From Geitlerinema sp. PCC 7407 (lineage in GTDB: Bacteria; Cyanobacteriota; Cyanobacteriia; PCC-7407): DNA of 64,000 bases. Each line of letters opens with the position of its first letter. Position 1 is the stretch's first letter. Position numbers and translations under genes: made by a program. The stretch is from assembly GCF_000317045.1 (NCBI RefSeq), contig NC_019703.1:1042501-1106500 (forward strand), in the 5' to 3' direction. The notes under the pieces are model-generated. The model saw only the letters and a list, made by a program, of their open reading frames with translations. It was not told where the DNA came from and did no database searches. Of this stretch, positions 4,855-51,802 are shown one piece after another.

Positions 4855-5913
4855 ATGGGTGACGTTGGGCAGGTACCGGTTGGGATTATAGGTGCCTCAG
4901 GCTATGGCGGTGTGCAGTTGGTTCGCCTGCTGATGGACCATCCAGGAATTGAGGTGGCCTATTTGGGCGGTGAGAGCAGCGCGGGAAAGTCGTTTTCTCA
5001 CCTCTATCCCCACTTGGGTCATGCGGTCCATTTGACGATCGAGCCGATCGATCTGGAGGCGATCGCCCAGCGCTGTCGAGCCGTGTTCTTGTCGCTGCCC
5101 AATGGTCTGGCCCACCAGATCGCCCCGACCCTGCTGGAGAAGGGGTGCAAGGTGCTGGATTTGTCGGCGGACTACCGATTTTTCAATCTAGACACCTATA
5201 AGTCCTGGTACGGAGGCGATCGCCTAGATGGCGCGATCGCTGAAACGGCGGTGTATGGCTTGCCTGAGCTTTACCGCGATCGCATTGCCGAAGCGTCCTT
5301 GGTCGGCTGCCCGGGCTGCTACCCCACGGCCAGTTTGCTGGCCCTAGCGCCCCTGCTCAAGCAAGGCCTCATTTTGCCTGACAGCACCGTGATCGACGCC
5401 AAGTCGGGCACCTCCGGCGGCGGCCGTCAGGCCAAGGTCGGCATGCTCCTGGCTGAGGCCGACAACTCTGTGAGCGCCTACGGCGTCGCCCGCCACCGCC
5501 ACACCCCCGAAATCGAGCAAATCTGTAGCGATTTGGCGGGCCATGAGGTCACGGTGCAGTTTACGCCCCACCTGATGCCCATGGTGCGCGGCATTCTCTC
5601 CACGGTGTACGCCACGCTCCGCGATCCGGGCCTGGTGCGCGAAGATTTGCTGACGATCTACTCTGCCTTTTATCGCAACTCGCCCTGGGTGAAGCTGCTG
5701 CCCAGCGGCACCTATCCCCAGACCAAGTGGGCCGCAGGCACCAACCTGGCCTACATCGGCATCGAGGTGGACCCCCGGACGGGCCGCGTGATCGTGATGT
5801 CTGCGATCGACAACTTGGTGAAAGGTCAGGCAGGCCAAGCGGTCCAGTGCCTCAACCTGATGCTGGGCCTAGAAGAGACCCTCGGCTTGCCCCAGCTGTC
5901 GTTCTATCCATAA
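4855..5913 (+). CDS. argC: N-acetyl-gamma-glutamyl-phosphate reductase
   Basis: 352 residues, normal length for the family. The Rossmann glycine motif is [16 protein letters not shown] (from about residue 11), and the active-site cysteine is C155 in GCPGCYPTA, which forms the acyl-enzyme during NADPH-dependent reduction of N-acetylglutamyl phosphate to the semialdehyde in arginine synthesis. [10 protein letters not shown] and the C-terminal [17 protein letters not shown] are also typical. It stands alone, divergent from ribBA. A hairpin followed by T residues that could end its transcript lies inside the convergent RNA-binding-protein gene at 5993-6016. Confidence 0.97.
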
Positions 5914-5973
5914 TCGCGGCGATCGCGATGGGCCAGAGAGGGCGATCGCGCTTCCCTGGCCAAACCCAAAGTT

Positions 5974-6246
5974 CTAGCGCCGGAAGCTGCCTCCCCGAGA
6001 CTCCTCTCGGGGTTTTGCTTTATTCACTCGCAGCTGGCGTCCCATCCACTCAGCGCCATTGAGCTCCTCGATGGCGGAGTCCTCTGTGCTGTCATCGGTC
6101 AAGTCCACAAAGGCAAAGCCCCGCATCCGGCCTGTTTCGCGATCGGTGGGCAGGACCACTCGTTCGACGGTGCCGTACTCCGCAAAGACGCTCCGAACAT
6201 CCTCTTCTGTCGCTTGGTAGGACAGGTTGCCAACGTAAATAGTCAT
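5974..6246 (-). CDS. Short RRM-domain RNA-binding protein (cyanobacterial Rbp type)
   Basis: 90 residues: a single RRM domain with RNP2 IYVGNLSY (about 3-10) and RNP1 RGFAFVDL (about 42-49), then a short basic tail ending RGGSFRR. Cyanobacterial Rbp proteins of this size bind RNA; several relatives respond to cold or help localise mRNAs of membrane proteins. The tail here is short and has only a hint of the glycine-rich region found in some relatives. The last codons of the gene double as the stem-loop that would end convergent argC. No terminator of its own is evident. Family assignment is secure; the specific role is not. Confidence 0.92.
   Translation of the reverse strand: MTIYVGNLSYQATEEDVRSVFAEYGTVERVVLPTDRETGRMRGFAFVDLTDDSTEDSAIEELNGAEWMGRQLRVNKAKPREESRGGSFRR
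5993..6016 (+). terminator. Probable argC terminator inside the 3' end of the convergent rbp gene
   Basis: CCCCGAGA (5993-6000), loop CTCC, TCTCGGGG (6005-6012), then TTTT on the plus strand. The 8-bp stem is perfect. It lies about 80 bp after the argC stop and within the coding sequence of the opposite-strand RRM gene. Confidence 0.65.
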
Positions 6247-6547
6247 AAAAATCAGTCAGTAGGCCAAACAGCGGGCCGCAGTTGCCAGCGCTGTGGGCGA
6301 TCGCCTTCTGGGCTGCCGTTTTGCCCCGCGCTCAGCGAAAACCTCTGGGCAAACAAGGGACAAAACCGGGGACAGAGTGAAATCAAGGGCGATCGCGCTG
6401 CAAAGCGCTATATCCCAGCCAATCTGCGGTTGGGACCCATCATAGCCCGACCTTTTTGGCCCAAAAGATCGCCTACACTACAAAATTGCGCCCCGCAGAT
6501 GATTCTGGAGGCGCATTGTCAGGACTTCTTAATATTGGCGAGTGCCG
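6247..6547. other. Intergenic region upstream of the RRM gene
   Basis: 301 bp between two minus-strand genes. It should contain the promoter and leader of the RRM gene. I see two HIP1 copies and no convincing small gene, RNA or clear promoter boxes. Confidence 0.3.
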
Positions 6548-6763
6548 CTAGTCGATGGTGATGGACTGCGGACCGTCTCCCTTGCCGTTCTGGCTGCTGT
6601 TGGAGGGGGTAGCGCTGGGCCGACCGGCTTGCTGATCGAGCCAGCTGCGGACCGGGTCTTCGGTGAGGCTCAGGCGAAAAATACCGGAAAAAAGACCGCC
6701 CGTGAAGGCAACGGGGTTCTGGGAAAACTCACGCACGAGGGGGGTTAGTTCGGTCAAAAACAT
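6548..6763 (-). CDS. Small conserved cyanobacterial protein of unknown function
   Basis: 71 residues from the ATG at 6761-6763, starting MFLTELTPLVREFSQNPVAF and continuing GGLFSGIFRLSLTEDPVRSW. The FxGG(L/F)xSGxxRLxLxxDPVxxWLDQQ pattern is one I recall from short cyanobacterial hypothetical proteins. The N-terminal two thirds could form an amphipathic helix plus a short hydrophobic stretch; the tail after about residue 50 is Ser/Gly/Asn-rich and probably unstructured. The frame stays open upstream past the nrdJ stop, but the protein-like sequence begins at this ATG. It lies downstream of nrdJ in the same direction with a 154-bp gap, so co-transcription is possible. No function is assigned. 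Confidence 0.68.
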   Translation of the reverse strand: MFLTELTPLVREFSQNPVAFTGGLFSGIFRLSLTEDPVRSWLDQQAGRPSATPSNSSQNGKGDGPQSITID

Positions 6764-6917
6764 GGCTGCATCCTTGGCGAAAGCGTTGGGGCCTTCTGGA
6801 AAAGGCGTTTCTACAAGGAATCCTAGCGCGATCGCCGGGATTCGGTAGAGGGCGATCGCCGTGGAGAATGACCCCAAGCGGCGATCGCTTCGAGATACGG
6901 ACTTAGCCTGACTAGCC

Positions 6918-9900
6918 CTAGTTGCTGGGCTGCTGCTCAGGCAGTAGGCACTTGTCGGAGTCGCAGCCAGCGGGTCCAGCCTCGGCCATTTCGCCCAGGT
7001 CGTACCGGCTGAGGGCGGCGTGGAAGTCTGCCGTTGCGCGGCGCTGCTTGACCGCGTCCAGCATGGCTTCGTAGGTTTCCTTCGAGATCGGCTCAAAGGG
7101 CAGCCGGGGGAAGGTTTGCAGGTCATCAAAGCGGGCCAGCAGAGCCGCTGACATGTAGCCTTCATCTCCCTCGATCGCCTGGAAGATGCGATCGCCCAGA
7201 CTCTCGATCTCGCCTTCCCGCAGCTCGATGGTGGCGCTGGTGTTGTGGGTCACGTAGTGCCGCTGCACCTGCATGTAGAAGTCAAACTGTGCGTCAGCCG
7301 AGAACTGAGAAATATCAATTTGATCTGCCCCTGGCAGATTGGCCCAGGGCACTTCTACCGGGATTTCTACCAGCCACTCCGTGCAGCGCGGATCGAAAGG
7401 ATCGTTGAGCAAATTGCCCTGCTCATCCTTATCTGATTGCGAGGGCACCACTGAGTAGCCAAAATCAATGCAGGCCAGGGCGACCGGGTCATTCTTGCGG
7501 AAGGTGATCCGCCGAATGTAGCGCTGGGCCTTGGGGGGGTGCCAGCCTGGGGCTGCGCTGGTCAGCAGCGACTTGGTGCCGGAGGGCTGGACCGTGGTGC
7601 AGCGGTTGGGCCGCTTGATCCCGTGGCGATCGCAGTAGTCCCACACTGCCGCGTGGACGATCTCGCGCCAGCGGCTCAGGTACTCTGCCTCCTTCCGCCG
7701 GAACTCTGCGCCCTCGGGGGTGTCAGGACGCCCTGCCTCCCACCAGCGCAGCCAGTCTGACCCAAAAGCCGTCACAAAGAAATCAAACAGCCCCGTGAAG
7801 GAAACCCCCACGATGGGATCGAGTTCTCGAGAGTCCTGATAGCGCGGCTCCTGGAACTGGTGGTTGAGCAGCGCCGCCACAGAGAGCGCCCCCGCCGTAA
7901 AGGCTTCTGCCTGCTCATTCAGGTTCTGCGGATCGATGCGGTTTAGGTGCACCTCCGAAAGGTTGCACTGTCCGGTGAGAGTACCGCCAAAGACTCCCTT
8001 GTGAAACTCCGGCTCGTTGAAGCAGTAGCTATCGTGCTGTCCCGGCAGGGGTTCCACCGAGCGGATTACTTGCCACTTGCCCTTGATCTTGGGCGCATGG
8101 CCTCTGGAGGTATCCACTCGCTGGCAGGGAATGGCGGCACAGTCGGTAATTTGCAGATACCACAGATCCTTTTTGCGGACCCCCAGGTTGGTTTTGCTGC
8201 CGGCCTTGGCCATGAGGTTGATCGAGGAGGCAATGCCGCACTTCAGCAGCAGCAGGTACAGGCGGTAGGCTCGGTCATAGTCAGAAACATAGAGCCGTAC
8301 GCCGCCAGAGGAAGTCTCCGAGCCATCGGCATCAATGAGTCCGGCGATGAAATGCAAGATGCCTTCGCGGTTCCAGCTTGCTAGGGCTTCAAGGGCTTGG
8401 GCCTCGCCCTTGAGGGCGCGTACCTGCTCCGGATCAAAGTTTTCGTGGAAGCCCGTGTACAGCAAGCAGGGCGTTTCTGGGTTTTGGGCGTAGTAGCGCG
8501 GCGTGCCGGAGGTCCGTCCTGCCAAGGCAAGGCTCTGATAGCTCTTGACCCCGTAAAGCCGCAACTGAAGCTGGGGCTTGCCATGGGATTTGCACAGCGA
8601 GCCATCACCGACCAATTGACCGAGGGTATAGGCCCAGGTGGGATCGACAAACTTGCCGTCGCGGTAGTCAATCTTGAACGGCTCTGTGTGCAAGGCGTAG
8701 GGATGGCTGGTGAGGCGATCGCTCAGTTCCTCGGTAGTCACTTCGGTGTAGGTGCTGCTAAAGCGATCGCCCACAAAGAAGCGGTGCTTGGCGGTCACAT
8801 CCAGCGATGTGCCATCCCCAAAGGTGACTCGATAAAGCTGACGGTTTCGCCCTGTCTGAACAGGAACCACCTGGCTCCAGCGGCGACCATTCCATACTTC
8901 CACCGCTTGTCCCACCAGAGATTGAATGGGGTGCAGACCATCGCGGGTGATCAGCAGTGTGGAGCCCGCAACGCAGTGGAAATCAGCCCCCAGGATTTCT
9001 CCGCAGTTGTGGGCGACTAGGCCATTGGCGTCAAATCGGGCCGGACCGGGCACGGTGCAGTCGTAGACCGCCTCGACACCATCAGGCACAACGCTAGCCA
9101 CTGTCGCGGTAAACCGCTCGCGCCCATACTGCGCCGAAGCCTCGGCTAATTGCGCTGTCTTTGCAGGGTCCTGGAAGCCGATGAGTGCTGCAAAGATCGC
9201 GAGGTTGTCATTGGCGATCGCCAACTCGGGCTGAGCTCCTGACCTAGCGTCAATCGCAGAAACAATTCCCAGGCGTCCCAGCATTCGCTGCACCGCTTGC
9301 AGATCCGCCAGACTGCTTTGAGCGAGACGCACACTGACGCTTCCGGTCGGGCTGCTCTGAATGCGGCTATGGGCACTAAACAGCCCCTGCAAAAAGCCTT
9401 GATAAAACTCGTAGCTCCCTTGTTCTATGGCGGAAGTGACGGCTGGTTGGTCTAGGATGACGCCAAACTCCGTGGCGAGACTAGCAACCTCTCCAGAATT
9501 GAGGGCTTTACGGGTGAGGGTTTGCGTGCGGACTAAAGCGGGCTTGGCCACCACTGCCTGAGCCAAGCTGTCGCTGCCGACTAGAGAGCCGAGCAGCTGA
9601 CCAGAGGCCAAGGTACCTTGGCCAGCCCAAGGCTGTAGGCCCCGGTGGTTGTGCAGCAAAACGCGATCGCCGGGTTGGAGGGTTTCAGCTGCCACCCAGT
9701 CGGTGTATTGAGCTTTCTGGGTCTGGGCCGTCACCTTCAAGACTTTGTGGTTGCCGGTTAGGCGCAGGCTGTAGCCCTCTTGGGTTGTCAGCTTGAGCAC
9801 GTCCTTGGTGCCGGAGTAGAAGAAACCAGCAGGCGTGGTGCTAAACAGCTCGCCATTGACGTAGGTGCTGTGCTGAACCCCGATCAGGTCCTTGACTTGG

Positions 9901-44114: not shown

Positions 44115-44957
44115 CTACATCCAGGAACTCTTGCGGTTGCGGGCCTCAGGACTATTTTCAATTTCCTGCTGCACCTTCTCTAGGGACCAGCCCCGGCCCA
44201 GGCAGCGCGACCAGGTACGCAGTCCTGCGGGATCGGCCTCCCGTTGCAGAGAGCTTTGATACATCTGGCTAATCAGAACCTGCGCCTCGCGGCTAGAAGC
44301 GACCTTGAGTCTTACCTTGCGCACTGACCAGCCCCTTCCCAGTCGGTCGGCCCAGGTCTTTAGGCCGCGGTAGTCTGCCGGACGCCCCAGCACTTCCTGA
44401 TAAATGGCGTGAATCTGTGCCTCAACCTCGGGAGACAGGTAGGAAGCGGCGTCGATGTTGCTGCCAATCAGGTTGGTCCCCTTGAGATTTGTCTGGCTCA
44501 GGACAGCGTTTTCGAGATTGACGCCGATGAAATTGGCGTTGGCCAGATCGGCGTTGGCGAGGATGGCATTCTCGAGGTCGGCTCCTCGCAGATCGGCCCG
44601 CTCGAAGTTGACACCGGCTAAGTTTGTGTCGATCAAGTTGGCGCTGCCGAGCTGGACCTTTTGCAAGTTGGCGCCTTGTAGGTTCGCACCGCGCAAGTTG
44701 ATGTGTTTCAGGTTTGCGCCCTCGAGGTTTGCGCCGGCGAGGTTGCTGTTTTTGAGGATGGCATCTTCCAGGTTGCTGCCCTGGAGGTCGGCGCCCTGGA
44801 GGTCAACAGCGGTCAGATCGGCGCTGCGCAGGTCACAGCTTTGGCACTGCTTGGTGTTGATAAGTCGCTGCACATCTGCGCGGGAGTCAGCCTTGGCAGG
44901 GGCTCCAAGGCTGGCGATGAAGACTAGGCCGGTGGCAGCCCAAAAAATAGGTTTCAT
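44115..44957 (-). CDS. Secreted pentapeptide-repeat protein with two DUF4214-like repeats
   Basis: 280 residues. Signal peptide MKPIFWAATGLVFIASLGAP. About 40-155 is a run of pentapeptide repeats (A(D/N)LxG pattern: LQGADLQGSNLEDAILKNSN, GANLEGANLKHINLRGANLQ) forming a right-handed beta-helix. About 170-275 holds two related helical units: IYQEVLGRPADYRGLKTWAD with LGRGWSVRKVRLKVASSREA, and MYQSSLQREADPAGLRTWSR with LGRGWSLEKVQQEIENSPEA. These resemble DUF4214. Two N-terminal cysteines (QCQSCDL) may pair. DUF4214 is usually in large surface proteins, so the mixture may be a small envelope scaffold. Role unknown. Confidence 0.85.
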   Translation of the reverse strand: MKPIFWAATGLVFIASLGAPAKADSRADVQRLINTKQCQSCDLRSADLTAVDLQGADLQGSNLEDAILKNSNLAGANLEGANLKHINLRGANLQGANLQKVQLGSANLIDTNLAGVNFERADLRGADLENAILANADLANANFIGVNLENAVLSQTNLKGTNLIGSNIDAASYLSPEVEAQIHAIYQEVLGRPADYRGLKTWADRLGRGWSVRKVRLKVASSREAQVLISQMYQSSLQREADPAGLRTWSRCLGRGWSLEKVQQEIENSPEARNRKSSWM

Positions 44958-45192: not shown

Positions 45193-47514
45193 TTAGGAGG
45201 AGCGGCGAGGTCGTTTGAGATTTTTCAGACGGGCCTGAAGGCTGGAGATGTCCTCAGAGTTTCGACCCCCGTAGCGCCAGCTGACGTAGGCGTGAATAAT
45301 GTCGTTGGCCGTGTTGGCCACCTGAGGACCGCTCGTGTGCGATCGCTGGCGTAGGGTTTCAGCGTACTCCAAGGGAGTCTGGGAAGGCCGCTTTTGCCAG
45401 CCCCACTGGGCCATCAGCCCCAGGAGTTGCTGATAGAGCCGCTCCATAGGCGGTAGTTTGGCGAGCCAGCGCTGACGCCGCCAGCTGCGCCAGCGACCCC
45501 AGCCCAACCAGCCCAAGAAGCTCAGGCCGACCAGCAGCAAAAGACCCGCAAATAGGCCAACCCAGCCGCGGAACAGAAGCTGCAAAAACCAGGCAATGAC
45601 GCCCCCAATGACCTGGCCCAAAACGCCAAAAACCCGCGATAGCCAGCCGCTCACCGGCGAGGGCAAGAAGCCAGCGACCCACTGCCAAAACTTGCGCAGC
45701 AGGCTAAAGGCTTGGCTCTCTTCGATCGAGGGCGGCGTGAGTTCGTGGCCGGGAATCGGGTCAAAGGCAAACCACCCGTAGCGCGGGAAGTAAACCTCGG
45801 TCATGGCGTAGGCGTCGGTGTTCTTGACGATGTAGAGGCCGGTAAAGGGGTTGAATTGACCGGGGCCAAAGCCGACGACCAGGCGGGCGGGAATGCCGAC
45901 GGAGCGCAGCATGATGGTCAGCGCTGTGGAGAAGTGGTCGGGATAGCCGCCTTCGTACTCGAAGAGGAACGCTGAAACCAAATCCTCTTGGGCTTCTAGG
46001 AAGGGGAGATCGGGCTGGAGGCTGTAGCGCTGCTTGAGGTACTGGGCCAGGTACAGCGAGGTTTCGTAGGGATTGGTGAGGGGCTTGGGGGAGGCGGCGA
46101 TGATTTCTTCGGTTCGCGATCGCACCCGATCGGCGATCGCCTCCGGCACCTCCAGATACTGCCGCTCAACGAGCGCAGGGTAGTTCGTCCCTGCTTGTCC
46201 CAAAGCCGCCCGATCGCGGAAGGGCACATCGGAAACGACGGTGTAGGTGACCCCCTCTAGCAGGGTCAGGGGCGATCGCAAGCCGCCCTCTGGATCCACG
46301 GCGATTTTGTCGACGGGAAAGTACAGCTCATCGGGCTGCGTCATGGCCGGGATCAGGTTCGTCAGATCCGAAACCACCGTGTAGGTTTGGATCACTTCCC
46401 GATGGCGGCGCAGAGGAGCCGTGCGCGGCAAATAAAACTGATAGGACCAGCGGGGTCGCTCTAGGTTTGTCACCTGGTCATTGCGGGACACCTCCCAGCC
46501 CTGGCCGGTGTAGCGATCGAAGGACAGCACGCGCCAAAAGCCCTCTGCCTGCGATCGCACGCGCAAAACTGTTTTTTCCTCGAGCTCTCCCCGCAGGTTT
46601 TGGTTGATTTTGGTATTGAAGCCGTAGTAGTAGGTGGGATCCATTTGGCCCGCCCCTTCGGCAGGCGAGTTGCCCTGGCCGCCACCGCCCTCTTCTTCTG
46701 CATCCTGATTGGGGCCGCGAGAATACCCCGGATTGATCACCTGACGACCGTCAAATTCCCCTTGGAACTCCACCGGCGCGCTGACCGGGAACGATCGCAG
46801 CTGATAGCCGGGCAGTCTCGGCAAGCAGGCAAAAATGACCAAGCCGCAGCTGACCACTGCCAAAAAGAACAGGCCCAAGCGCTTGGTCGAAAGGTCTGGC
46901 CCGAGGGTCTTCTGGAGATTTTTGGGATGGAGGACCTGGGTGACTAGGCCGAGGCGGGAGCGATAGTCCAGCACCAGCACCGGTAGGGCGATCGCCAAAA
47001 ACAGCAGCAGGAACGGCCCAAAAGCCAGCGTTTGGCTCAAGGTGCCAGCCACGCCCAGCAAAATCAGACCGATCACGACGGAATAGCCCAAGTCTTTGCG
47101 GCGCGGCAAATCAAAGCTGTGTAGCACCTGAAGCTGCACCAGCAGCTCGGCCAGCACCAGGCGAGTATCATTCAGCTCGCCCACCAGCCGCGCAAAAAAA
47201 GCCCCCAAGGAAATCAGCATTCCGATGGCGAGGCAAAACTTCATGGCGATGTTGCGATCGCGCCGGTGCTGCCAGCTCCACACCGCCCCCAAAATGCTGA
47301 GAGGCACCGCCCAAAAACTGCGGCCCGTCGCCTCTGCCGCATTCGCTGCGGCCACATCCAGCGCAATGATACCCACCACTACCAGCGCCTGAGCCATCAC
47401 CCGCAAGGGCAGCGAATCCTCAGGCTCTGGGAGTTCACCAGCATTGATTTGTCGTTGCCACCGATCCAGCAGTGAAGAACGGGGCGATCGCGGGGAGGTT
47501 GACGGATTAGCCAT
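45193..47514 (-). CDS. TgpA-type membrane transglutaminase-like protein with broken catalytic triad
   Basis: 773 residues. About six N-terminal helices (70-230) are followed by a periplasmic part with a transglutaminase-like core (about 470-600). C-terminal helices (about 630-680) precede a cytoplasmic DUF4129-like tail (RLYQQLLGLMAQWGWQKRPS, TPLEYAETLRQR). The core reads EYEGGYPDHFSTALTIMLRS, VGIPARLVVGFGPGQFNPFT and KNTDAYAMTEVYFPRYGWFA. In active homologues GY(C)EHFA and (D)AHAW hold the catalytic Cys and His; here they are Pro525 and Tyr569, while Asp585 (FDPIPGH) is kept. Spacing is 44 and 16 residues, as expected. A non-catalytic role is likely. The same changes may hold across cyanobacteria. 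Confidence 0.88.
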   Translation of the reverse strand: MANPSTSPRSPRSSLLDRWQRQINAGELPEPEDSLPLRVMAQALVVVGIIALDVAAANAAEATGRSFWAVPLSILGAVWSWQHRRDRNIAMKFCLAIGMLISLGAFFARLVGELNDTRLVLAELLVQLQVLHSFDLPRRKDLGYSVVIGLILLGVAGTLSQTLAFGPFLLLFLAIALPVLVLDYRSRLGLVTQVLHPKNLQKTLGPDLSTKRLGLFFLAVVSCGLVIFACLPRLPGYQLRSFPVSAPVEFQGEFDGRQVINPGYSRGPNQDAEEEGGGGQGNSPAEGAGQMDPTYYYGFNTKINQNLRGELEEKTVLRVRSQAEGFWRVLSFDRYTGQGWEVSRNDQVTNLERPRWSYQFYLPRTAPLRRHREVIQTYTVVSDLTNLIPAMTQPDELYFPVDKIAVDPEGGLRSPLTLLEGVTYTVVSDVPFRDRAALGQAGTNYPALVERQYLEVPEAIADRVRSRTEEIIAASPKPLTNPYETSLYLAQYLKQRYSLQPDLPFLEAQEDLVSAFLFEYEGGYPDHFSTALTIMLRSVGIPARLVVGFGPGQFNPFTGLYIVKNTDAYAMTEVYFPRYGWFAFDPIPGHELTPPSIEESQAFSLLRKFWQWVAGFLPSPVSGWLSRVFGVLGQVIGGVIAWFLQLLFRGWVGLFAGLLLLVGLSFLGWLGWGRWRSWRRQRWLAKLPPMERLYQQLLGLMAQWGWQKRPSQTPLEYAETLRQRSHTSGPQVANTANDIIHAYVSWRYGGRNSEDISSLQARLKNLKRPRRSS

Positions 47515-47621: not shown

Positions 47622-48776
47622 CTACCTCGCCCCAGCGCTGCCCGTCACCCCAATCATCATCCGCAGCGGCAAAGCTTCCTCCGCATCCGAAAGCTCCACC
47701 TCCAGCGCGTACTCCTCGCCCACCTGGGGATAGGCCAGCTCAACGCACAGATTGCCCGGACCCCCACACTGGGAAAACGACTCCGCCATAGCGCCCTGAA
47801 GCTGCAAACTACCGCTGCCGGGCAGCGCTCCTTCCACCCGCAGCCAGGGCAGACCGTCCTGGAGCAGGTACTGGACCCTCAAAGTCACCGGGCCCAGCGC
47901 CGTCAGCCACTGCCGCTCGGCCTGCGCTTGATCGGCCCCAACTGCAATGCGCAGCGACGAAAGAATCTCGCGAGCTGCCAACAAGGACAACACCATCTGC
48001 TGAGCCGGATCCGCTGTCTCATAGCTGCGGGGGAAATGCTCCCGCGCCGTTTCTGACAGAGTCGCTGTCCCAGATCGCAGCGGCGACACTAGCACCAGGC
48101 CCGCCAGATGATTGAGCGTGGGGGCCTGGCCGGGAAATAGGGCCTCCACCGCCTGAACGAGCTTGGCGCCCTCTTGCAAAGCACTGTGCATGATGGCTTG
48201 GCAACGCTCCAAAATTTGACCCAGCACAATTTCAGGCACTGGTACAGGAAGCGCCGTCTGAAGCTGCTTTAGCCACAGAGCCGCTGGAACTTCTTGGGGA
48301 ATCCGGACGTCTGACAGAATATCGTCAGATTCGGGCTCATAGTCCAAAATTTGCGTCTCCCACGGGAACAAAGGCGGGTGGCGCTGGATATCGGTTTGCA
48401 ACCGACGTTTGATTAGGGCGTGAAAACGATCTTGTACGGTGGACATTTCTCTTGATTTGAGTGGTTGATTCCCCACTGATAGCGAGTCGCCTTCGAGCGA
48501 CGACAACTCGAGAGGACCAAAGCTGCTAACTTCTGCCTCTAGGGGGTCTAGCGCCTCAGCATGGGGGGAATGAAAGGCGTTTGAATCAGCGTCATTATCC
48601 GCAGCCACAGGATGCACCGAAGGGAACGCTTCGGGAGGAAGGTTCGTGGCGCGATCGTGAGCACCCGAAAACTCGTCTGGGCTGGAGTGCTCTCCCGAAG
48701 GAGGCTGAAGCGGGAGAGAGTCCTGTAGCAACCAGCTCAAAAAACTTTGCTGAAACGCTTCTGGTTCCCTATTCAT
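47622..48776 (-). CDS. patU: PatU-like heterocyst/pattern regulator
   Basis: 384 residues encoded directly after hetZ with an 8-nt overlap. hetZ followed by patU is a conserved pair in filamentous cyanobacteria (patU5/patU3 in Anabaena). The first 110 residues are acidic, Ser/Pro-rich and likely disordered; MSTVQDRFHALIKRRLQTDI (from about 109) and ETQILDYEPESDDILSDVRI follow. The C-terminal part is a beta-rich domain (VTLRVQYLLQDGLPWLRVEG, LCVELAYPQVGEEYALEVEL). PatU3 counters HetZ in Anabaena pattern control. Assignment leans on the position next to hetZ and on remembered C-terminal similarity; the N terminus looks divergent. Confidence 0.78.
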   Translation of the reverse strand: MNREPEAFQQSFLSWLLQDSLPLQPPSGEHSSPDEFSGAHDRATNLPPEAFPSVHPVAADNDADSNAFHSPHAEALDPLEAEVSSFGPLELSSLEGDSLSVGNQPLKSREMSTVQDRFHALIKRRLQTDIQRHPPLFPWETQILDYEPESDDILSDVRIPQEVPAALWLKQLQTALPVPVPEIVLGQILERCQAIMHSALQEGAKLVQAVEALFPGQAPTLNHLAGLVLVSPLRSGTATLSETAREHFPRSYETADPAQQMVLSLLAAREILSSLRIAVGADQAQAERQWLTALGPVTLRVQYLLQDGLPWLRVEGALPGSGSLQLQGAMAESFSQCGGPGNLCVELAYPQVGEEYALEVELSDAEEALPLRMMIGVTGSAGAR

Positions 48777-50010
48777 CGGTCGATGCCCCTGTTCCGGATA
48801 TTAATTGGTTACGAATTTCCCAGGCCTGTTCTAACAGCTTGGACCACTGACGCTGCACCTGAGTCAAGCTACAACCCAGTTTTTGGGCGATCGCCCCATC
48901 GGGCTGTCGAGCCTGCTTCAGCTCCAGCAACCTTGCCTGGGATACCGTGATGCGTTGCTGAAGCTCTTGCCACTGTTGCGGCGTCAAACCCAAGTTTTTC
49001 TCTAAGTCTGCCTCAAGCCACTGATGAACCAACTCCCATTCGTGGGAAAGCGCAAACCGGATCAGATGGTACTTAAAGCGCTGCTGTAAGTAATCCCGCT
49101 CTCGGGGCGTCAGGCCCATATGCGCCTCAATCTCGCTAGCGGAGAAGTCCTTGAGCCGCAGCTGAAAATACTCCGCGCAGTCGGCTTGCTTGCGCTGCTT
49201 GAGATAGGCCGTCAGCTCATTGATGACCTTGGTGCGCAGCGTGGCTTCTGGCGCATCGTTGTCCTGAGCTACCATCTGGTCGCGGACCTGCTGGAGCGAG
49301 GCCGCTCCCCAGCTTTGGTCGTCCTCTGGGATGGCGCCTTCGGCGGCCTGCTCGATATCCACAAGAGCCTCTTGGGGCTGCTGCCGCGAAAAAGTTTGGG
49401 CGCGCAAGATGACGAGCTGCTGCTTGCGCCGCCCCGGCAAAGGGATGGGGCGCTTGGCATAGCGCTCGCAAAAGGCCATGTATTCGGCCAGCTCCAGCAG
49501 CGTGGCGGGCGAGTAGCGATCGCCCAGCTCAGCTTCGCGCCGAAAGGCATTGAGAGCTTCGAGGTAAAAGCTCTGCAAAAAGTCCTCAATCAGTAAAACC
49601 CGGGCCTGATAGCTGGCGTGGGCTTGGGGCGGACTGATGTAGCGATAGACAATGGCGCTGAGGGTGCTGTGCAGCTCGACCCGGCCCTGACGAGATTTGA
49701 GGCGATAGTAGCGCAAGCACTGCTGCAGGCGATGGCGCGCAAGGGTCATCGCCCAGGCCTCCGATTGCCCCGAGTCTTGAATTCGCTGACTCTCGAGACA
49801 AATCCGAGAGACCTCAGCGCTCAGGCGGCCCGCCACGGCTCGACAGTCGACCTCAGAAGCCCGTGTGGACTGCCGAAGTTCCTGAAAGATGAACTGAAAG
49901 GTCGCCTCCACGCGCTTGCAGATCTCCCTGAAGTCGCAAATGATTACCACAGACCCTAGCACAGGGCTTTCGGCGGCTCTGGGGCCTGGTTTTCGCAGCC
50001 CGTCCGCCAA
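48769..50010 (-). CDS. hetZ: HetZ-type regulator of heterocyst/cell-pattern development
   Basis: 413 residues with this start. Characteristic stretches: ESQRIQDSGQSEAWAMTLAR, HRLQQCLRYYRLKSRQGRVE, LHSTLSAIVYRYISPPQAHA, IEDFLQSFYLEALNAFRRE, RDYLQQRFKYHLIRFALSHE, WELVHQWLEADLEKNLGLTP and a C terminus ending SGTGASTDE. The C-terminal 100 residues contain a helix-turn-helix-like unit (AIAQKLGCSLTQVQRQWSKL). HetZ controls heterocyst differentiation downstream of HetR in Anabaena and is present in all filamentous cyanobacteria. The conserved part begins near VEATFQFIFQEL (about 34), so the true start could be downstream of the ATG used here. Forms an operon with patU. Confidence 0.94.
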   Translation of the reverse strand: MADGLRKPGPRAAESPVLGSVVIICDFREICKRVEATFQFIFQELRQSTRASEVDCRAVAGRLSAEVSRICLESQRIQDSGQSEAWAMTLARHRLQQCLRYYRLKSRQGRVELHSTLSAIVYRYISPPQAHASYQARVLLIEDFLQSFYLEALNAFRREAELGDRYSPATLLELAEYMAFCERYAKRPIPLPGRRKQQLVILRAQTFSRQQPQEALVDIEQAAEGAIPEDDQSWGAASLQQVRDQMVAQDNDAPEATLRTKVINELTAYLKQRKQADCAEYFQLRLKDFSASEIEAHMGLTPRERDYLQQRFKYHLIRFALSHEWELVHQWLEADLEKNLGLTPQQWQELQQRITVSQARLLELKQARQPDGAIAQKLGCSLTQVQRQWSKLLEQAWEIRNQLISGTGASTDE

Positions 50011-50830: not shown

Positions 50831-51802
50831 TTAGTAGAGGCGGCTCAGGACGTAATCCGTCAGCCGGAGCAGAGCCTGCCGAGAATCGGAAGCGGGGAGA
50901 TCGGCGAGGGCCTCCACGGCGATCTTGGCGTGGCTTGCCGCTAGCTCGCGCGATCGATCCAGACCCTGGCTCGTCTGCACCAGCTCTAGGGCCTTCTCGA
51001 GGTCTCCCTCCTGGGTGAACTCGCGCTCAATAATAGCTTCCAGGTAAGGCTGCTCCTCCAGTGCGTAGAGCGCCGGTGCCGTCAGGTTACCGCTCTTGAG
51101 ATCGGAGCCAGCTGGTTTCCCCAGGGACTCCGCTGACCCCGTGAAGTCCAAAATGTCGTCAACGATCTGGAAGGCCAAGCCCATGTGCTTGCCGTAGCGG
51201 TACAGGTTGTCGGCCATTTCTGGCGAAACTTCGCTGAGCAAGCCAGCTGCCTTGGCGCTGTTGGCGATCAAAGAAGCGGTTTTGTAATAGCTTTTGTCGA
51301 GATAGGCCTCGATGGACAGACCGGTGTCAAACTGCGTCAGGCCCTGGCGAATTTCGCCCTCGGCCAAGTCCATGATCACTTCCGAGAGCAGCTTGACGAC
51401 GGCGAGGTTATCCAGGTTGGCCAGATACCAAGATGCCTGGGCAAACAAAAAGTCCCCGGCCAGCACAGCCACGCGGTTACCAAAGCTGCTGTGAACGGTG
51501 GGGACACCTCGGCGAAGCTCTGCTTCATCGACGACATCGTCGTGAACCAGGCTGGCGGTGTGAATCATTTCAGTAATTTCTGCGAGGCGGCGATGACGAG
51601 GGGTCACGCCTTGGTCCGGTAGGGTCGCTCGCGAAATCAGCAGAACTACTGCTGGCCTCAGTCGCTTTCCGCCCGCCCCAAACAGATGCTCTGCTGCAGC
51701 ATACAGAATGGGATGTCGGGCACCCACCAGCTTTTTTAAGTTTTCCGTCAGCAATTGCAAATCTGACTCGACTGGGGAAAAGAGTGATGTTGCTGAGGTC
51801 AT
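50831..51802 (-). CDS. sds: Solanesyl (all-trans polyprenyl) diphosphate synthase
   Basis: 323 residues. First Asp-rich motif VHDDVVDEAE (D88-D92), second AFQIVDDILDFTG (near 213-225), GGKRLRPAVVLL (about 44-55) and KTASLIANSAK. The family elongates FPP or GGPP with IPP; bulky/small residues before the first motif (TASLVHDD) fit long-chain products, here the nonaprenyl tail of plastoquinone-9. A UbiH-like hydroxylase elsewhere in the window could serve the same pathway. Highly conserved in cyanobacteria. Confidence 0.95.
   Translation of the reverse strand: MTSATSLFSPVESDLQLLTENLKKLVGARHPILYAAAEHLFGAGGKRLRPAVVLLISRATLPDQGVTPRHRRLAEITEMIHTASLVHDDVVDEAELRRGVPTVHSSFGNRVAVLAGDFLFAQASWYLANLDNLAVVKLLSEVIMDLAEGEIRQGLTQFDTGLSIEAYLDKSYYKTASLIANSAKAAGLLSEVSPEMADNLYRYGKHMGLAFQIVDDILDFTGSAESLGKPAGSDLKSGNLTAPALYALEEQPYLEAIIEREFTQEGDLEKALELVQTSQGLDRSRELAASHAKIAVEALADLPASDSRQALLRLTDYVLSRLY

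Follow-up and report, generated by a model that had tools for sequence, protein, structure and literature searches.

A TgpA-type transglutaminase homologue without its catalytic cysteine is conserved in Cyanobacteriia and inherited together with unlinked MoxR and DUF58 genes

The genome of the cyanobacterium Geitlerinema sp. PCC 7407 encodes a TgpA-type membrane protein in which the active-site cysteine and histidine expected of a transglutaminase appear to have been replaced. This raises the question of whether the gene is a decaying enzyme gene or is maintained for a role in which catalysis has been given up. The protein, here called pseudo-TgpA, is encoded within the window, which is the whole stretch of 64,000 nucleotides that was analysed (contig NC_019703.1, positions 1,042,501 to 1,106,500 of the forward strand). 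Its features are collected in Table 1.

Pseudo-TgpA meets the TgpA family architecture, with TgpA_N, Transglut_core and DUF4129 in order and all above the curated Pfam cut-offs; the TgpA_N region comprises the membrane helices and the first periplasmic part. The Pfam matches to TgpA_N and DUF4129, together with the helices of the structural model, support the claim of a preliminary description that the membrane topology and a DUF4129-like tail remain. When a profile of 35 orthologues was used, Pseudomonas aeruginosa TgpA (PDB: 6g49, 6g4h) was the only solved relative (E 6.5e-21), and the profile alignment places Pro525 opposite its catalytic Cys and Tyr569 opposite its catalytic His. The codons of the window likewise give Pro525, Tyr569 and Asp585, in excellent agreement with the replacements, the spacings of 44 and 16 residues and the retained aspartate first described, all within positions 45757-45960. 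With Pro, Tyr and Asp at these sites, the Cys-His-Asp triad of an active transglutaminase or TgpA enzyme is not present. A structural model was generated with AlphaFold from the window protein and 54 relatives (mean pLDDT 75; within the transglutaminase core, most ten-residue blocks reach at least 90 and the lowest block 75). The model is predicted to adopt the TgpA periplasmic fold, superimposing on 6g4h with a Z score of 24.8 and an rmsd of 3.3 over 262 residues.

Table 1. Features of the pseudo-TgpA locus, in positions of the window
Feature	Position	Strand	Evidence
TgpA-type pseudotransglutaminase gene, 773 aa	45193..47514	-	ORF and translation; Pfam TgpA_N, Transglut_core, DUF4129
TgpA_N region, residues 66-433	46216..47319	-	Pfam PF11992, E 3.9e-17; helices in model
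Transglutaminase core, residues 479-586	45757..46080	-	Pfam PF01841 Transglut_core, E 2.4e-19
DUF4129 tail, residues 693-752	45259..45438	-	Pfam PF13559, E 2.4e-10
Pro525, site of catalytic Cys	45940..45942	-	codon CCC; aligned to Cys of 6g49
Tyr569, site of catalytic His	45808..45810	-	codon TAC; aligned to His of 6g49
Asp585, third triad residue, kept	45760..45762	-	codon GAC; Asp/Asn in 157/157 crown rows
PatU-like gene, 384 aa, between hetZ and the pseudo-TgpA gene	47622..48776	-	no Pfam match; homologue downstream of hetZ in other loci
hetZ	48769..50010	-	NCBIfam NF037963, 634.5 bits, cut-off 550
Solanesyl diphosphate synthase gene	50831..51802	-	TIGR02749; synteny, often upstream of hetZ in related loci

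To follow the triad residues across the phylum, 386 Cyanobacteriota genomes were searched, of which 151 gave a match at E 1e-5 or better. The orthologue set was defined as the 116 genomes of the same class with a best E of at most 3.9e-66, the next same-class row standing at 7.9e-23; by our reading of the search table, these genomes span 24 family codes. Loci were taken from this search, from regions chosen for diversity and from one scan, of which the best 80 of 473 relatives served as named loci. The resulting crown set holds 152 distinct sequences, with five duplicates counted once and one broken copy (L065, from genome G383) left out.

None of the 155 distinct orthologous sequences from Cyanobacteriia (the 152 of the crown set and three of the divergent family f26) carries the catalytic cysteine. 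Across 157 crown rows, the Cys site is occupied by Pro (142), Ala (9), Gly (4), Val (1) or Ile (1), the His site by Tyr (124), Phe (15), His (15), Gln (2) or Val (1), and the Asp site by Asp (138) or Asn (19). The three f26 rows have Glu-Gln-Asp at the triad positions. By contrast, the other classes of the phylum contribute 17 homologues and every one of them has Cys-His-Asp, as do all 12 weaker paralogues. Because the cysteine is present in 0/155 orthologues, against 29/29 relatives that keep the full triad, its absence cannot be a matter of chance. The alignment at Pro525, Tyr569 and Asp585 that had been proposed as a check thus supports the suggestion of a conserved pseudoenzyme should the replacements recur in other cyanobacteria, although the replacements themselves are less uniform than that suggestion implied. 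Pro and Tyr are merely the commonest residues at the two sites, Glu being a further occupant of the Cys site, and the loss of His holds for most crown rows only; since 15 of the 157 retain it, the loss of Cys alone is universal. A nearby alternative Cys/His pair, which would have refuted the idea, was not found in the transglutaminase core, where no Cys column reaches 30% of the 157 crown rows.

The phylogeny points to a single origin of the Cys-less proteins. In a tree of 93 rows, all 68 of them lie on one side of a branch with SH-aLRT 100, and the Cys state requires one change and the His state eight. In a second tree of 37 rows, built from periplasmic columns only after exclusion of the triad columns, all 18 Cys-less rows again fall into one clade (100/100). 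The f26 branch is placed differently in the two trees, and a 'Gloeobacter-like' identity of this family was not established, as the Psb27 match present in all three f26 genomes falls below that family's cut-off. Families f17 and f25 have no pseudo-TgpA and carry instead a TgpA of 772-792 aa with the Cys-His-Asp triad. A topology that groups them with the Cys-less clade could not be rejected (p-AU 0.232), so the loss of Cys may predate or postdate the f17/f25 split, and replacement by an active set cannot be told apart from retention of one with the present data. These two families (loci L104-L107, from G239, G083, G330 and G175) also have no DUF58 of the kind that goes with pseudo-TgpA; alongside their TgpA they have MoxR and a DUF58 of 351-406 aa, likewise in scattered positions.

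The pattern of conservation provides further evidence. Among 42 crown rows, the transglutaminase core is the most conserved region, with a mean pairwise identity of 0.67, followed by the N-terminal membrane part (0.64), the preceding periplasmic part (0.54), DUF4129 (0.45) and the remainder (0.42-0.44). Residues F554, N555, P556, F557 and N565 are invariant in all 42. The Trp that follows the catalytic His in 16/16 rows from the other classes is Met, Leu, Ile or Val in the crown. In the absence of codon-rate data, these changes look like remodelling rather than decay. Because the Cys-less proteins form one clade and the core is their most conserved part, sequence comparison confirms pseudo-TgpA as an old conserved pseudoenzyme and not a decaying gene, with the loss of activity itself remaining an inference.

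Genomic context was then compared between classes. In eight genomes of the other classes (G001, G007, G013, G021, G026, G029, G041 and G044), the gene for canonical TgpA immediately follows those for DUF58 and MoxR, all on the same strand; G016 has a DUF58-TgpA pair close to a contig end, and others, such as G010, G035 and G053, have the three genes on separate contigs. Pseudo-TgpA has no adjacent MoxR or DUF58 and does not meet the adjacency criterion of the MoxR-DUF58-TgpA system. In the window's genome, an orphan DUF58 gene (385 aa) lies at 991,745, the TgpA gene at 1,087,696 and an orphan MoxR gene at 4,397,048.

The co-occurrence criterion is met, with neither partner found outside the set. 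With the DUF58 of the window's genome as query, E jumps from 2.8e-33 to 1.0e-23 among same-class rows, and the genomes with orthologues within this limit, 116 of 386, coincide exactly with those that have pseudo-TgpA, both set differences being empty. With its MoxR as query, rows of at least 67% identity are found in 112 of the 116 genomes and in 0 of the 270 others; the next rows, at ~50-57% identity, come from genomes of the other classes and from paralogues. A clear MoxR row is missing in G119, G129, G358 and G372. The eight orphan MoxRs included in a 34-sequence MoxR tree form one clade (97/96) beside those of the other classes, with the operon-linked ones next, and the P-loop LEDVPGVGKT is present in 8/8 inspected.

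The three genes also disappear together. The trio is absent from G048 and G231 (f7 g14), G085 (f7 g25) and G157 (f11 g48), inside families that otherwise have it, and from G145, G181 and G266 (f6 g44), though present in G141 of the same genus. Decay is likewise shared: all three genes carry stops in G383, and G119 has TgpA and DUF58 fragments with stops and no MoxR. Despite lacking the trio, G048, G085 and G231 retain hetZ and a MoxR of another type. These joint losses are weakened as evidence because some of the genomes are probably reduced or decaying symbionts, in which many genes vanish together, and joint inheritance was scored by family and genus code rather than along a species tree. 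Within the limits of such genome comparisons, TgpA, MoxR and DUF58 are scattered in Cyanobacteriia but inherited together, and that the scattered partners still travel with pseudo-TgpA is the new result of this analysis. Neither these partner genes, the most telling on function, nor the hetZ-patU neighbourhood considered below figured in the preliminary description.

Additional sets of these genes occur in some genomes. A second, shorter TgpA with Cys-His-Asp stands beside its own MoxR and DUF58 in several genomes that carry pseudo-TgpA (G229:C1:3545293-3550017, G253:C1:1075239-1080499, G072, G125 and G027). The window's genome also has a second MoxR and a 441-aa DUF58 of another type (G000:C1:322195-322743 and 816980-817372; L196, L212), which lie apart there and are adjacent in several relatives (G229, G048, G085, G087 and G344).

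Inheritance and loss in step with two scattered partners suggest that pseudo-TgpA is a structural part of an envelope machine rather than an enzyme. We therefore favour, as probable although far from settled, the interpretation that it serves, without catalysis, as the periplasmic scaffold or ligand-binding subunit in a cell-envelope machine made up of MoxR, DUF58 and TgpA. The nucleophile would have been lost once, in the ancestor of the sampled Cyanobacteriia carrying pseudo-TgpA, after which the fold and much of the cleft would have been kept under strong constraint. MoxR, an AAA+ ATPase, and DUF58 would act on the TgpA subunit from the cytoplasmic and membrane side, switching or remodelling it, and the cleft of this subunit may bind, without modifying it, an envelope or septal ligand in the periplasm. 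The physical complex, the mode of switching, the binding cleft in the periplasm, the role at the cell wall or septum and the absence of activity are inferred. No experiments on any of the three cyanobacterial genes were found in the literature searched, and the link to the cell wall is inferred by analogy, from gene position and from work in P. aeruginosa and Anabaena.

The position of the gene suggests another reading, in which pseudo-TgpA is a division or septum regulator working functionally with HetZ and PatU and the MoxR/DUF58 link is secondary; we consider this unlikely. In the window, hetZ and a patU-like gene immediately precede the pseudo-TgpA gene, which thereby satisfies the position criterion of the hetZ-patU cluster. 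The name PatU-like is an inference from position and from the order hetZ, patU, 'transglutaminase' reported for Mastigocladus in the part of PMC9284123 available to us, where the intact copy of Anabaena PCC 7120 is treated as a functional transglutaminase. Across 161 Cyanobacteriia loci, hetZ and the homologue of the 384-aa gene are found upstream on the same strand in 96, the homologue alone in 15 (most with a flank of only ~1.5 kb) and neither in 42, with too little flank in 8. Among the 77 of 386 genomes with hetZ over the cut-off, pseudo-TgpA directly follows hetZ and the patU-like gene in 58, lies within 8 kb in 4, is absent in 3, and in the remaining 12 sits at a different location, on a different contig or on the opposite strand. 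A septal role would also fit Anabaena PatU3, which limits septal peptidoglycan synthesis and binds ZipS according to the portion of PMC12288457 that was accessible. However, 42 of the 116 pseudo-TgpA genomes have no hetZ over the cut-off, and the hetZ genomes G048, G085 and G231 lack pseudo-TgpA, DUF58 and orphan MoxR alike, so that strict dependence on hetZ is ruled out.

Other neighbours were less consistent. ORF clustering of 36 loci without hetZ revealed no recurrent neighbour, as no ORF cluster occurs in more than 8 loci; the two largest clusters overlap the pseudo-TgpA gene itself on the opposite strand. Directly downstream of the gene in the window (44115-44957, minus strand), a pentapeptide-repeat protein is encoded that has two DUF4214 units and a signal-like N-terminus; it does not recur as a neighbour among the compared loci. 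In one locus (L083, from G022; 5894-8722, plus strand), hetZ and pseudo-TgpA are fused in one open frame of 943 codons, with HetZ followed by TgpA from about residue 211 and with neither the patU-like gene nor the initial membrane helices; the DUF58 and orphan MoxR of this genome are intact.

The high conservation of the core could also mean that pseudo-TgpA is still an enzyme using other residues of its remodelled cleft. Two candidates adjoin the lost Cys, Asp526 in 42/42 and His527 in 38/42 crown rows. Yet His527 belongs to the ordinary C-E-H-F motif, is found in 13 of 16 active homologues and is therefore part of the ordinary fold, while Asp526 is Ser in family f26 and the nucleophile site has no new conserved Cys, Ser or Thr, which leaves continued catalysis a distinctly improbable reading. 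Even less credit can be given to the view that pseudo-TgpA, itself inactive, competes with or acts as a decoy for an active TgpA paralogue present in the same cell: genomes with both proteins, the Cys-His-Asp paralogue standing beside DUF58 and MoxR, do exist (e.g., G229 and G253), but such paralogues are found in few of the 116 genomes, and the window's genome encodes just four further proteins with Transglut_core, ranging from 218 to 580 aa. A relic or sequencing error, as the broken copies in G383 and G119 and those interrupted by a stop codon in Mastigocladus UU774 and PCC 9339 (PMC9284123, as far as its text was available) might suggest, can hardly be entertained for a window copy open over 773 codons and is ruled out by the fixed loss of Cys in 155/155 distinct orthologues together with the conservation of the core.

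A non-catalytic subunit of the MoxR-DUF58-TgpA machine, as favoured here, would amount to a natural experiment, indicating that the conserved function of this set can run without catalysis: the nucleophile was gone before most cyanobacterial families split, yet the gene stays one of three that are jointly inherited. For a protein that annotations normally present as an enzyme, the analysis also identifies partners that can be tested, and the position of its gene links it to genes controlling septa and heterocyst pattern. A broader conjecture, which we can put forward only tentatively, is that the conserved job of the machine is not transglutamination. It would have run without the nucleophile since the common ancestor of the carrying families, with the transglutaminase cleft serving to bind or sense a ligand of the envelope or septum, and in filamentous lineages the gene would have come to lie beside hetZ-patU. 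The same non-catalytic role may underlie the unexplained essentiality of TgpA in other bacteria. In the literature searched, which had little reach into subscription papers, we found no description of a TgpA pseudoenzyme or of the dispersed trio, and no bacterial membrane-bound dead transglutaminase that occurs throughout most of a class and is inherited jointly with an ATPase.

Among known systems, P. aeruginosa TgpA shares the domain order and periplasmic fold of pseudo-TgpA, and the gene partners there, PA2875, which we take to be a MoxR, and PA2874, presumably a DUF58 protein, would match those of the operons in the other classes of Cyanobacteriota. It differs in having the triad, whereas the cyanobacterial protein lacks the nucleophile and is encoded apart from its partners. 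The P. aeruginosa gene (PA2873) is reported to be essential and co-transcribed with PA2875-PA2874, and its domain had transglutaminase activity in vitro (PMC3507681); the available part of that paper gives no answer as to whether the essential role is catalytic. EPB42 (Protein 4.2) of the red-cell membrane skeleton is similar in using an inactive transglutaminase fold as a membrane scaffold, one of several such transglutaminase or papain folds serving as eukaryotic scaffolds, with menin and Rad4, in the accessible portion of PMC10318531. It is among the fold matches of the predicted pseudo-TgpA structure (7uzs, Z 10.0), but it is eukaryotic, lies on the cytoplasmic side, has another domain order and is no close relative. 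The MoxR-vWA conflict systems, as far as PMC7159879 could be consulted, resemble the trio in that a MoxR ATPase is paired with another conserved protein, joined in some cases by an inactive enzyme as the third component. They differ in forming clusters with vWA proteins and variable effectors, whereas the cyanobacterial trio is dispersed, mostly has a single copy of each member in a genome and appears to be vertically inherited.
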